Shown here one piece after another: positions 26,136 through 35,350 of a DNA stretch of 64,000 nucleotides. The translations under genes and the position numbers were made by a program. The notes under the pieces are model-generated. The model searched no databases, had not been told where the DNA came from, and was given only the letters and a program-made list of their open reading frames with translations. This DNA comes from Dongia deserti (lineage in GTDB: Bacteria > Pseudomonadota > Alphaproteobacteria > Dongiales > Dongiaceae): the NCBI RefSeq assembly GCF_003574735.1, contig NZ_QORW01000009.1, forward strand, positions 186,001-250,000, given 5' to 3'. How positions within the stretch are numbered: position 1 is the first letter of the stretch; each line of letters starts with the position of its first letter.

Positions 26136-26277
26136 GCGCCGGCGCCGGCCAGTATCCCCTCATAGTCCAGACGCATCGACATCATAGGCACCCGGCATTT
26201 CCGCCTGCGCGTCGCCGTCATCATGATGCAGCGGAGAGGCCGGCATGGCGCGCGGCCGAAAAGATGAAGGAAGATCC

Positions 26278-26775
26278 ATGTCCATCCGCATCGGTGCCGT
26301 GTGCGCGGCGGCCGTTCTCGCTGCCGGTCTCGCGGGCTGCGCGTCGCAGCCGGAAACCAGGCTTGCCGCTCATCCCGCCGCCAGCTCGTATGGCATCGTG
26401 GCGGTGAAGAGCGCGCATCCGTTCCCCGAGACGGTGGCGCGGCTAAAGGAAGACGTCGCGGCGAAGGGCCTGGTGTTCTTCCAGGAAGTGGACCAGCAGA
26501 AGCTGGCGGCGGAGGCGGGCATCGCGACCCAGCCCTCGACCCTGCTGGTGTTCGGCAATCCCGCGCTCGGCACGCAATTCATCACTGCCAACCCGCAGGC
26601 CGGCATCGACTGGCCGGTGCGCCTCCTGGTCTATCAGGACGCGCAAGGCGCGGTGTGGGCCGAATACACCGACTTCGCCTACATCGCCGAACGCCACGCC
26701 ATCGCCAGCCGCGACCCACAATTCCAGAAGGCGTCGGAGGTGATCGCGTCGATCGCGGGCAGCGTCGCGAACTAG
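26278..26775 (+). CDS. DUF302 lipoprotein
   Basis: A 165-residue protein with a lipobox signal (AVLAAGLAGC), so it should be membrane-anchored, followed by a DUF302 domain: YGIVAVKSAHPFPETVARLKE, VFFQEVDQQKLAAEAGI and VFGNPALGTQFI, then PVRLLVYQDAQGAVWAEYTD. DUF302 proteins are small alpha/beta proteins of unclear role, often associated with stress and redox functions. The ATG at 26278 is preceded by GAAGGAAG. It is convergent with the EF-G-like gene, ten bases away. Confidence 0.9.
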   Translation: MSIRIGAVCAAAVLAAGLAGCASQPETRLAAHPAASSYGIVAVKSAHPFPETVARLKEDVAAKGLVFFQEVDQQKLAAEAGIATQPSTLLVFGNPALGTQFITANPQAGIDWPVRLLVYQDAQGAVWAEYTDFAYIAERHAIASRDPQFQKASEVIASIAGSVAN

Positions 26776-26785
26776 CTAGAAGCCG

Positions 26786-27667
26786 CTACCAGCGCAACGC
26801 GGCCGCCGGCGCGAACGGACCACGGTCATCAGGAAGATTTGGCGGGATCTGTTCGTAGTGGTCGAAGGTCATCGTGTATTGCGCGTGGCCGCGCGACATC
26901 TGCATCAGTGTGGCCGTGTAGCCGAACATGTTCGCAAGAGGCACCAGCGCCGCAATAACGTGTGCGTTGTCACGACTTTCCGTGCTCTGCACCTGACCGC
27001 GCCGCAAATTGAGGTCACCAATCACGTCGCCCATGTGCTCCTGCGGCGTCACGACCTCGATCTTCATGACAGGCTCGAGGATCCGCGGACCGGCCTTGGG
27101 CATCGCTCCGCGGAAACAGGCGCGCGCCGCGATGTCGAACGTCATGACGTTCGAGTCCACGTCGTGATAGTCGCCGTCGACCAACGTGCACTTGATGTCG
27201 ATGAGCGGAAAGCCGGCTAAGACGCCAGTCTCCTTCGCGGCCGCCAGGCCTTTTTCGACACCGCGCACGTACTCCATGGGCACTGCACCGCCGGTGGCTG
27301 CGTTCTCAAAGACGAAGCCGCTGCCGGGGTCGCCCGGTTCGAAACGGATCTTGACCTTCGCGTATTGCGGTGGGCAAGCGAGCTTCTTGTGGGTGTAGTT
27401 CCACTCGATGGTTTTGGTGATCGACTCGCGATAGGCGACTTCCGGGGCGCCGACCTCGAAGTCGAGGCCTTTGACGCGCTTCAGGCGATCGATGGCGATC
27501 TCCAGGTGCAGTTCGCCCATGCCTTGCAGCACGATCTCGTTGATCGGACCGGTCGTGACACCGAGCGTAGGATCCTCAGCGCATAGTTCGTCGATGGCAG
27601 CGCGCAGCTTCATCGCCGCGATCGCATCGGGAGGCACGAGGTCGACGGAGATAAGGTGGGTCACCAT
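26786..27667 (-). CDS. EF-G-like protein of domains III-IV-V only (no GTPase domain), copy 1
   Basis: A 293-residue protein that aligns by eye to the last three domains of elongation factor G. Domain III carries EIVLQGMGELHLEIAIDRLK and PEVAYRES; domain IV carries the tip loop GDYHDVDSN with the histidine that in EF-G reaches the decoding centre; domain V carries ILEPVMKIEVVTPQEHMGD and VIGDLNLRRGQV. There is no G domain or domain II, in this frame or upstream. The other domain IV tip loop (GGRGQYG in EF-G) is replaced by KKLACPPQYA. It is probably a ribosome-binding protein without its own GTPase. It is last of three genes, 51 bases after copy 2. Start by alignment with copy 2. Confidence 0.85.
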   Translation of the reverse strand: MVTHLISVDLVPPDAIAAMKLRAAIDELCAEDPTLGVTTGPINEIVLQGMGELHLEIAIDRLKRVKGLDFEVGAPEVAYRESITKTIEWNYTHKKLACPPQYAKVKIRFEPGDPGSGFVFENAATGGAVPMEYVRGVEKGLAAAKETGVLAGFPLIDIKCTLVDGDYHDVDSNVMTFDIAARACFRGAMPKAGPRILEPVMKIEVVTPQEHMGDVIGDLNLRRGQVQSTESRDNAHVIAALVPLANMFGYTATLMQMSRGHAQYTMTFDHYEQIPPNLPDDRGPFAPAAALRW

Positions 27668-27718
27668 GGGGGCAGACACTACACGATTTTCGCGCGCGCG
27701 TCCCATTTGCCACACGCT

Positions 27719-28609
27719 CTACGCGCGCAGGCGCAGGGGGAGCGCTTCCTCGCTGTCGAGGCGGGGCGGCACTTCGCTGTAGTGGTCGAAGGCCATGGTG
27801 CTGGCGCCGCGGCGCTGGGTCATGGCGCGCAGGTCGTTGTCATAGCCTGCTAGATTGGCGAACGGCACCAGCGCGGTGATCGCGGCGATGCTGCCATGCA
27901 TCGCGAGGTTCTGCACTTTGCCACGCCGGCCGCCCAAATCGGTGATCACGTCGCTCATGAACTCTTCGGGCGTCAGGGCGACCACCACCATCATCGGCTC
28001 CAGCAGCCATGGCCGCGCGCGCGGCAGGGCCTCGCGCAGGGCGAGGCGCGCGGCGATCTCGAACGCCTCGGGCGTCGAATCCGTGTCGTGCCAGCCGGCG
28101 TCCAGGATCACCACCTGCAGATCGGTGAGTGGGAATCCGTCGACCACACCGGCCTTGCACGCGGCATGCACGCCGGTATCGATGGCGTGCTGAAAATCTG
28201 CCAGCGGAATGTGGGTCGGGATCTCGTCGGACGGACAGCGGATCTCCGTCTCGATCCCTGCCCCGCGGATGAGCGGCGTCAGCTGGATGCGCAGCACGGC
28301 GAATTGCGGCGGGTCGGATTCCTTATGGGTGTAGGTCCATTCGAGGGTGCGCGTGACAGTCTCGCGATATTGGACCTCCGGCATGCCGACCTGGAACGCA
28401 AGCTCCGGTTGACGCTGCAGATAGCCAATGACCCATTCCAGCTGCGGTTCGCTGATGCCTTTAAGGATGACTTCGCCGGTGGGTCCATCCTCGACAGTCA
28501 GCGTTGCATCTTCCGCGCACACCGCTTCCAGACTGGCGCGCAGCCTTTCCGCGGCGCGCGCATCGCCCGGCTCGAGCGGGATGGAGAGGACGTGGGTCAC
28601 GACAGTCAT
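27719..28609 (-). CDS. EF-G-like protein of domains III-IV-V only (no GTPase domain), copy 2
   Basis: A 296-residue paralogue of the next gene with the same three EF-G domains: GEVILKGISEPQLEWVIGYL in place of the MGELHLDI helix, PEVQYRETVTRTLEW, the tip loop AGWHDTDST, and WLLEPMMVVVALTPEEFMSD with VITDLGGRRGKV in domain V. It is more diverged than copy 1: GMGELHL is now GISEPQL and YHDVDS is WHDTDS. No GTPase domain is present. The ATG (28609) overlaps the TGA of the YcxB-like gene as ATGA, which implies translational coupling. The open frame continues to 28909, but that part antiparallels no homology. Confidence 0.85.
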   Translation of the reverse strand: MTVVTHVLSIPLEPGDARAAERLRASLEAVCAEDATLTVEDGPTGEVILKGISEPQLEWVIGYLQRQPELAFQVGMPEVQYRETVTRTLEWTYTHKESDPPQFAVLRIQLTPLIRGAGIETEIRCPSDEIPTHIPLADFQHAIDTGVHAACKAGVVDGFPLTDLQVVILDAGWHDTDSTPEAFEIAARLALREALPRARPWLLEPMMVVVALTPEEFMSDVITDLGGRRGKVQNLAMHGSIAAITALVPFANLAGYDNDLRAMTQRRGASTMAFDHYSEVPPRLDSEEALPLRLRA

Positions 28610-29193
28610 GGCGAGGATTCCGGCCGCACGGCGTCCCGGCTGGCTTGCCAACGGCGCACCAGTTCCGCGCCGAAGCTTTCGACATCCTGGCCTTCGAACG
28701 CCGCCTTGATCATGACCAAGCCGGCGTTGCCCGGCAACACGGCCACCAGAGTGCGGCCGTCGTTGATGATGGTCTCGATGTTCTCCCAGTTGCATGAGAA
28801 CCGGCCGCGCCGCGTGATCTTTTGGATGCCGTCGGCCTGCAGGGCATAGCGATCGCCGGCATCGAAGATGCTCCAATGTTTTTCCAGGTGTAGCCGCGTC
28901 GTGACCCAACGGTTGAAGCCGAGGGCGAATGCGAAACCGGCGGCCGCAACGGCCAGCTGCAGCGCGAGGTCCGGCTTGACAACGTCAAGAGCCTTCACCG
29001 CCATCAGGACTGACACGATCATGAACGCGGCAAAGGCATACCAGAGATAGAAGGATATGGCGTGGAGACGGCCCGCTCCGCCGCGCCAGATCACCTTTTC
29101 CCACAGGTGGCCAACCTCGCGCTTCTCCTGCGCGGTGAACGCGCGTGTCTGAACGATGTCTAGCGCGTCGGCTGCGCGCTGCCCTGCATTCAT
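28606..29193 (-). CDS. YcxB-like membrane protein, coupled to the EF-G-like pair
   Basis: A 195-residue protein with two adjacent hydrophobic segments (ISFYLWYAFAAFMIVSVLMAV and LALQLAVAAAGFAFALGF), followed by a soluble PH-like tail: YALQADGIQKITRRGRFSCNWENIETI, then LVAVLPGNAGLVMIKAAFEG and FGAELVRRWQ. The W..IE.I and .P..AF...... F...L..RW pattern matches YcxB-family proteins, whose role is unknown. The stop codon overlaps the start of EF-G-like copy 2. A second YcxB-like protein lies at 34631-35233. Confidence 0.78.
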   Translation of the reverse strand: MNAGQRAADALDIVQTRAFTAQEKREVGHLWEKVIWRGGAGRLHAISFYLWYAFAAFMIVSVLMAVKALDVVKPDLALQLAVAAAGFAFALGFNRWVTTRLHLEKHWSIFDAGDRYALQADGIQKITRRGRFSCNWENIETIINDGRTLVAVLPGNAGLVMIKAAFEGQDVESFGAELVRRWQASRDAVRPESSP

Positions 29194-29296
29194 CGTCGTT
29201 CCCCAAGCGATTATGACTTTCGACTGAGCCTAGCGACCGATGGTTAATCAAAGGTTGGGAACGCTGACCTGCTGACGACGGATCGCGCGCTGCTGC

Positions 29297-34630: not shown

Positions 34631-35233
34631 CTAACTCCTAGGGCTGGTCGCCCGTTCCGTGGCAACCTGGGACCCGTGGTGTGCCGACCAACGGCGCTCC
34701 AGCTCAGCGCAGAAATGCTCGACCTGTTGTGCGTCGAAGGCCGCCTTGGGGAATGCATATGTGTGGATGGAGGAGACCCGAACTGCAAAGAAAGGGTCCG
34801 AAACGGTTACCTGAAGAATGCATTGCCAGGAGAGATGTGTCAGGCACTCTTTCCCTTCGATCGTCAGGCCCCTTCCGTCGATCGCGTAGCGAGAGCCTGC
34901 TTTGGACATCTCGGCGTTACCGCGCCCCGCCACTATTCGCACCCGGGATTGCATCGCGGAGAAGGCTACGAACGCGAGCGGGATCGTCGCCGGGCTCCAG
35001 GTGTAAAACGAACTCGCGTCAGCCGACTGGTTCGCGAACTCGATCAGCGACACCATGGCAAACAGCAAGGCGCCAGACACGAGCAGCTGGAACGCCCAGA
35101 ATAGTGGATCACGACGGCAGGTCGCAGCGATGTGACGCCATGCAACGGTGCTCATCTGCTTGCCTTCGGCCAGGGTCGTGTCCCTGGCCTGCACGATCGA
35201 CAGTGGCATGGATTCCGCCGCTGCAACGGTCAT
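34631..35233 (-). CDS. YcxB-like membrane protein (second copy)
   Basis: A 200-residue protein with two hydrophobic segments (LFWAFQLLVSGALLFAMVSLI and ATIPLAFVAFSAM), then YAIDGRGLTIEGKECLTHLSWQCIL and TYAFPKAAFDAQQVEHFCAELERRW. The tail matches the YcxB pattern of the protein at 28606-29193: W at the start of a helix, a pattern FPxxAF, and F...L..RW. Unlike that copy it has no EF-G-like neighbour. The ATG at 35233 follows GGGGGGTGAA. Function unknown. Confidence 0.76.
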   Translation of the reverse strand: MTVAAAESMPLSIVQARDTTLAEGKQMSTVAWRHIAATCRRDPLFWAFQLLVSGALLFAMVSLIEFANQSADASSFYTWSPATIPLAFVAFSAMQSRVRIVAGRGNAEMSKAGSRYAIDGRGLTIEGKECLTHLSWQCILQVTVSDPFFAVRVSSIHTYAFPKAAFDAQQVEHFCAELERRWSAHHGSQVATERATSPRS

Positions 35234-35350
35234 TTCACCCCCCAATCACCTGGATCCATCGAACCGAACTCACTTAATTCCTTCGAGCAGAGCGAACAGC
35301 AATCTCGGGAAATTTCATTCCGACCCTAAATCCCCCATTCCGCACAGCGT

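Follow-up and report, generated by a model that had tools for sequence, protein, structure and literature searches.

Elongation factor G (EF-G), one of the most thoroughly studied motors of the ribosome, reaches the decoding centre with its domain IV. What the C-terminal half of the factor does without GTP is an old question that has so far been addressed with engineered truncations, and Borowski and colleagues reportedly found in 1996 that EF-G without the G domain promotes partial translocation. The block of domains III-V can be made and studied alone, as the FusB work shows (PMC4725979, PMC3352095), and one such protein, EF-GC3, which is EF-G without domains I and II, is folded in NMR and binds FusB (PMC4725979). 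Bacteroides EF-G2 (fusA2) is described as supporting GTP-independent translation and as induced on carbon limitation (PMC10294740). For natural EF-Gs that lack the G domain, we found no description among the matches listed in the open-access literature, a search with subscription papers mostly outside it. Translational GTPase surveys that require a G domain cannot see such genes; one survey, whose members include EFGII, spdEFG1/2, and the tetracycline ribosomal protection proteins, kept only sequences matching the GTP_EFTU model and would therefore have missed the genes described here (PMC4342817).

These genes came to light in a 64,000-nucleotide stretch of the Dongia deserti genome (hereafter the window). 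Three genes lie on its minus strand in the order YcxB-like, copy 2, copy 1: the YcxB-like gene (28606-29193, 195 aa); copy 2, a diverged stand-alone EF-G III-IV-V gene (27719-28609, 296 aa); and, after a spacer of 51 bases, copy 1, also a stand-alone EF-G III-IV-V gene (26786-27667, 293 aa). The ATG of copy 2 (28609) lies within the stop of the YcxB-like gene, so that the two overlap as ATGA. This overlap, pointed out in the earlier note, recurs in both sister genomes and is thus present in 3/3 genomes of the genus (g1) that carry the pair of genes. For copy 1, the most likely start is the ATG at 27667 (293 aa), with a GTG further upstream at 27715. The leader of the YcxB-copy 2 unit (29194-29263, minus strand) is alike in the three species (three genomes compared), with the pattern TTG[AC]TTAACCA..CG..CGCTAGGCTC ... 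TTGGGGA[AG]CGACG-ATG, and from its sequence it looks like a promoter. These 70 bases 5' of the YcxB-like gene contain a TTAACCA box, a TAGGCT box, and a ribosome site reading GGGGA in all three species. The region before copy 1 (27668-27690), inspected by eye, is without a clear Shine-Dalgarno sequence and has a TAGTGT box 8 bases 5' of the ATG, an arrangement as in a leaderless transcript; its counterpart in the sister genome G009 reads TAGCGT. Convergent with copy 1 is a DUF302 gene (26245-26775, plus strand), to which nothing matches within the 19.5 kb surrounding copy 1 in G009.

Both copies match EFG_III, EFG_IV, and EFG_C above the Pfam cut-off, while GTP_EFTU (PF00009) has no match in either copy and no other Pfam domain was found in either, in agreement with the earlier note, which had read them as two intact genes for EF-G domains III-V only, without a P-loop domain. 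Against TIGR00484 (the NCBIfam EF-G model, 691 positions), copy 1 spans 405-681 (score 303.7) and copy 2 spans 400-680 (score 186.7), compared with a cut-off of 659.4. Chance likeness to EF-G is excluded by the E-values of these matches (2.2e-90 and 1.4e-57, respectively). Structure prediction likewise returns the expected fold: the AF2 model of copy 2 has a mean pLDDT of 89.8 (residues beyond about 284 are of low confidence), and its best Foldseek match is an EF-G structure (E 3.5e-35, TM 0.86 over the query). Elsewhere the genome encodes a normal EF-G (open frame of 695 aa), with which copy 1 shares 67% identity in the III-V region, as well as an EF-G2 (open frame of 687-719 aa). We also considered a split EF-G with its own G-domain gene and rejected it, since none of the 16 GTP_EFTU matches in the genome is, by score and open frame, a separate EF-G-like G/II half; two shorter frames among them (378 aa and 216 aa) look by eye like Era and EngB, and two others are frames of <50 aa.

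Stand-alone genes are present in 4/17 genomes of the family. Three of these (G000, which is the window genome, G009, and G011) belong to one genus and carry two genes each, while G014, of another genus, carries one. The fourth genome of the window's genus, G010 (68% complete), shows none, giving presence in 3/4. The earlier note had asked whether the pair is conserved in other genomes; the genes are kept in three, but the two copies adjoin in only 2/3, being 540 kb apart in G011, where the neighbours of copy 1 are an argB-like gene, a HAD hydrolase, and a dapD-like gene (HAD by Pfam, the others by eye). Beyond the genus, an EFG_IV search of 75 genomes of the phylum (all matches listed) added one open frame to those of the window, that of G455 (316 aa). 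Two further matches were not counted, since the frame in G422 (174 aa) lies at the start of a contig and the EF-G of G436 is broken into two frames. The same search in 95 genomes of the class (three without any match) gave G020 (303 aa) and G129 (299 aa), of which G129 was rejected as a stand-alone gene, its EF-G2 being split into two overlapping frames. The split EF-G2 of G129 (L110) is either a frameshifted gene or an assembly error. In the genus of G455 (g285), 14/81 genomes have a stand-alone gene (7/81 gave no match at all at the limit used, EF-G included), whereas in a sample of its family (101 genomes, about one per genus) only G455 does, two shorter EF-G2-type frames (394 and 464 aa) falling outside the count. 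Outside the window's genus, G-domain-less EF-Gs thus occur in G014, of a different genus in the same family, and in two further families, represented by G020 and by g285. Searches of plasmid and phage proteins gave no clear stand-alone gene among the matches listed. EF-G-like stretches were seen in very large uncultured phage records of 484-735 kb (LR756501-LR756504, LR756508, LR745206).

Trees place the stand-alone proteins beside the EF-Gs of their own lineages. In a 54-row tree, all six g1 proteins fall into a single clade (100/100) beside the g1 EF-Gs, and the grouping of g1 stand-alones with the genus's own EF-Gs has support of 100/100 in this tree and 100/99 in another. Thirteen g285 proteins likewise form one clade (100/100) inside the EF-Gs of their family (100/100), the G020 protein and the EF-G of the same genome are sisters (100/99), and the G014 protein falls with the EF-Gs of its genus (82/95, on a long branch). 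EF-G2 rows were dropped from the G455-test tree and the 54-row tree, and G129 and G610 are also absent from the 54-row tree onward. A single ancient stand-alone family was rejected both with g1 and G455 as a clade (p-AU 1e-11) and with g1 and G020 as a clade (p 0.014); a clade of g1 and G014 was not rejected with the smaller set (p 0.14) and weakly rejected with the larger (p 0.020). Because the trees put the stand-alones beside their own lineages' EF-Gs and the joint clades are rejected, there were at least three independent births. Within g1, copy 2 branches on a long branch from within the copy 1 lineage, and copy 1 as a clade of its own was rejected (p 0.008). Recent gene conversion by fusA in g1 was also rejected, given that copy 1 of the window and of G009 shows no preference for the EF-G states of its own species; copy 1 of G011 is nearest its own EF-G, but the G011 EF-G is also nearest to other copies. 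The genes may also have spread horizontally, their bodies then recombining with the host fusA. The g285 and G020 proteins start at an internal Met of EF-G in the linker between domains II and III (where EF-G reads ILERMEFPDPVI).

We asked which parts of EF-G the stand-alone proteins have kept by following the columns that are invariant in EF-G itself (49/70 in domain III, the largest share, 52/122 in IV, and 50/79 in V). Averaged over five groups, the stand-alones keep 0.44 of these residues in domain III, 0.73 in domain IV, and 0.67 in domain V, and the difference between IV and III was reached by 0/10000 column shuffles. The kept fractions for domains III, IV, and V were 0.37, 0.87, and 0.82 in copy 1; 0.27, 0.53, and 0.61 in copy 2; 0.43, 0.63, and 0.60 in G014; 0.47, 0.79, and 0.64 in G020; and 0.69, 0.84, and 0.68 in g285. 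Domain III is thus lowest in four groups and about level with V in g285, while the highest fraction belongs to IV in every group except copy 2, where V leads. Identity of copy 1 to its own EF-G follows the same lines, at 72-93% in domain IV and 23-38% in domain III (for identities of this kind, the EF-G of G565 stood in for some g285 genomes). This pattern is consistent with proteins that lost the GTPase and kept the arm facing the ribosome.

The tips of domain IV are less uniform. Loop II of copy 1 (GDYHDVDS in the window) is kept in 3/3 genes, whereas loop I is kept in 2/3 (TGGKGEY, RTGGSGQY) and reads ACPPQYA in the window. The PPQ-type loop I that the earlier note described for both copies therefore holds for copy 2 (DPPQF in the window; PPQ, PSQ, and PPQ in the three species), but for copy 1 only in the window genome. 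Both tip loops of copy 2 are altered, and its loop II, recorded as AGWHDTDS in the window, has Thr in place of the tip His in one species (AGWTDSDS). Since G014, one copy 2, and several g285 members have lost tip residues, a role in the decoding centre cannot be uniform. At the C-terminal end of the protein, two residues that are invariant in EF-G are retained by 0/21 stand-alones, and for the five invariant columns among the final 14 positions of EF-G the kept fraction ranges from 0 to 0.48. In EF-G, the C-terminal helix belongs to domain IV and touches domain V (PMC3352095). In the stand-alones, this end is replaced by tails such as PDDDNFPPAIGMRA, FEGPPFRPAIGMRA, PDDFDPPPAMAIRA, and PDPRFPGAMGMRVA, with DDRGPFAPAAALRW in copy 1 of the window. 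We compared tails between groups by counting how many of 500 shuffles per pair reached the observed mean similarity. For copy 1 against G014, g285, G020, and copy 2, the count was 0/500 each, as it was for g285 against copy 2; the remaining pairs gave 8/500 (G014 and copy 2), 9/500 (g285 and G020), 14/500 (G014 and G020), 73/500 (G014 and g285), and 246/500 (G020 and copy 2). A null drawn from natural tails includes orthologous pairs and is not relied on; in it, 1.8-2.5% reach the best observed scores (10.7% for G020 and copy 2). By this measure, copy 1 tails are closer to the tails of the other groups than shuffling would produce. The exact tail PAIGMRA has two matches in 385 genomes of the class, neither in an EF-G, and one of them reads TGG with no stop.

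Our preferred reading, to which we assign a probability of roughly one in three (0.36), is that copy 1-type proteins are GTP-independent A-site mimics of EF-G. Partial duplicates of the lineage's own fusA, starting at the linker between domains II and III, would comprise only the ribosome-facing half of the factor. Such proteins would enter the ribosomal A site as domain IV of EF-G does, would bind and leave the ribosome without GTP, and may modulate or occupy ribosomes under some condition, competing with EF-G or with the delivery of aminoacyl-tRNA. Copy 2 would be a diverged sister with its tip partly lost, which the YcxB-like membrane protein may control or localise. The notion of ribosome binding without GTP draws indirect support from a single observation, the better retention of domain IV than of III. 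Counting against the A-site mimic are the better retention of domain V than of IV in copy 2 and the retention of III at the level of V in g285, together with the lost tip residues, the patchy distribution, and a rate of evolution above that of EF-G.

The YcxB-like protein encoded next to copy 2 gives no hit to Pfam at E<=1, and the label given to it in the earlier note holds instead by homology, because related proteins of the two sister genomes score 37.1 and 25.1 bits against PF14317 (YcxB), above the cut-off of 23.3. The AF2 model (mean pLDDT 79, four sequences) begins with two long helices (residues 40-107), which probably form a hairpin in the membrane, and ends in a PH-like beta domain; fold matches in the PDB are weak and of FERM/PTB type (best E 3.2e-3, none <0.001). 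A protein search found relatives of the window protein in 3/17 genomes of the family, all in this genus. We know of no link between YcxB-like proteins and EF-G. Other G-domain-less EF-Gs, for which the earlier note had proposed a profile search next to YcxB genes, do exist (G014, G020, g285), but no YcxB partner was seen beside the g285 or G020 genes (ORFs within 4.5 kb, BLAST clustering). A general YcxB link is therefore not supported, the link being seen only with copy 2 and in one genus; with no neighbour common to the g285 and G020 sites either, it looks like a local addition outside the basic design. A second YcxB-like gene lies in the window at 34637-35245 (minus strand; PF14317 at 22.2 bits, just below 23.3), with no EF-G half adjoining.

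This partner bears on the first of the alternatives, in which the EF-G half would have been repurposed as a non-ribosomal protein, with copy 2 working in solution together with the membrane-bound YcxB-like protein. Copy 2 overlaps the YcxB gene in every g1 genome that carries it and is far from EF-G (38-40% identity to its own EF-G in domain IV, 20-26% in domain III), yet it is 69-78% identical between species. Copy 1 and most g285 members, on the other hand, keep domain IV well, the g285 and G020 genes are without a YcxB neighbour, and the YcxB-like protein itself evolves fast (29-47% identity among the three species), contrary to what a tight, co-evolving interface would lead one to expect. 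For the stand-alones as a whole we regard this as rather unlikely; copy 2 taken alone would favour it more.

In a second alternative, the III-V block would serve as a decoy or sink that absorbs an inhibitor, drug, or protein attacking EF-G, with no action on the ribosome. Docking on domains III-V is known, as FusB binds this part of EF-G alone (PMC4725979, PMC3352095), and structures of EF-G complexed with argyrin B have been solved. The distribution is patchy and accessory-like (14/81 in g285, 1/101 in the sample of that family), and in g285 the gene occupies three unrelated sites: four genomes have it with an ABC-F ATPase, seven beside genes for nitrile hydratase, and three in the vicinity of yajC/secD-like genes. 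The labels come from NCBIfam for a single ABC-F and a single nitrile hydratase, and from clustering or inspection by eye for the others. We compared the neighbours of 15 stand-alone genes (14 from g285 and one from G020; ORFs within 4.5 kb, BLAST clusters), and in g285 they recur within each of the three sites with none common between sites. In four g285 genomes the ABC-F ATPase lies 0.6 to about 4 kb from the stand-alone gene (e.g., L073 9046-10668), and none is listed within 4.5 kb of the other ten. The ABC-F of G455 meets a ribosomal protection-like model, that of G623 is split into two frames, and the ATPase is likely a ribosome factor. Among the neighbours of the stand-alone genes, judged mostly by eye and in part scanned for domains, we noticed neither resistance genes nor toxin systems, and a pure decoy would not explain why domain III has drifted further than domain IV. 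We therefore think this explanation unlikely.

Finally, the frames of copies 1 and 2 are intact in three species, with protein identities of 64-69% for copy 1, compared with 95-96% for EF-G III-V. In the six g1 pairs of copies 1 and 2, dN/dS is 0.23-0.29 for copy 1 and 0.22-0.39 for copy 2; it is 0.34-0.79 for the YcxB gene and 0.05-0.08 for EF-G III-V; over 78 pairs of g285 stand-alones (G129, G610, and G020 left out), the median is 0.32 and the maximum 0.41. The stand-alone genes thus evolve faster than EF-G, and the ratios indicate that copies 1 and 2 are under purifying selection and not decayed, as the earlier note had supposed in calling them full frames rather than decay products; unlike the gene in G129, they are not frameshifted copies. 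We found no G-domain remnant upstream in another frame, copy 2 being preceded by the YcxB-like gene and copy 1 by copy 2. That the genes are relics, truncated fusA duplicates kept by chance for a while and slowly decaying, could draw on their faster evolution, their patchy presence, the loss of the tip in G014, and two oddities in g285 (no start found in G610, an internal insertion in G623), but it is improbable in view of dN/dS well below 1 in 78/78 g285 pairs (G610 left out) and in all six g1 pairs, the intact frames, the conserved overlap and leader, and the domain-specific retention.

Returning to the A-site mimic, half-factors that have arisen several times hint at an undescribed GTP-free action on ribosomes. 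If the reading is true, natural, selected, and repeatedly born G-domain-less EF-Gs would be living examples for the question so far put to truncated constructs. A wider and more doubtful statement is that Alphaproteobacteria repeatedly made the EF-G half into a GTP-free ribosome factor by a cut at the linker, a relaxation of domain III beyond that of IV, and replacement of the C-terminal helix by a similar acidic, proline-containing, and hydrophobic tail, with one genus placing a second copy under the control of a membrane protein.

Among known systems, PF14317 YcxB-like proteins correspond to the gene upstream of copy 2 through its relatives in two sister genomes. With EF-G (fusA) the copies share domains III-V and the fold, and they derive from the EF-G of the host lineage itself, but they are without the G domain and domain II, have replaced C-terminal residues, and have their own start and tail. 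Bacteroides EF-G2 is a diverged EF-G paralogue that acts without GTP (PMC10294740), as the stand-alones may also do, but it is full length (717 positions in NCBIfam EFG2_Bacteroid) and no half protein. EFGII, spdEFG1/2, and the tetracycline ribosomal protection proteins are likewise duplicates within the EF-G/EF2 family with altered roles, but again full length. The engineered EF-GC3 has the same domain limits as the stand-alones; it is a laboratory construct with a normal EF-G sequence, whereas the stand-alones are genes of their own.
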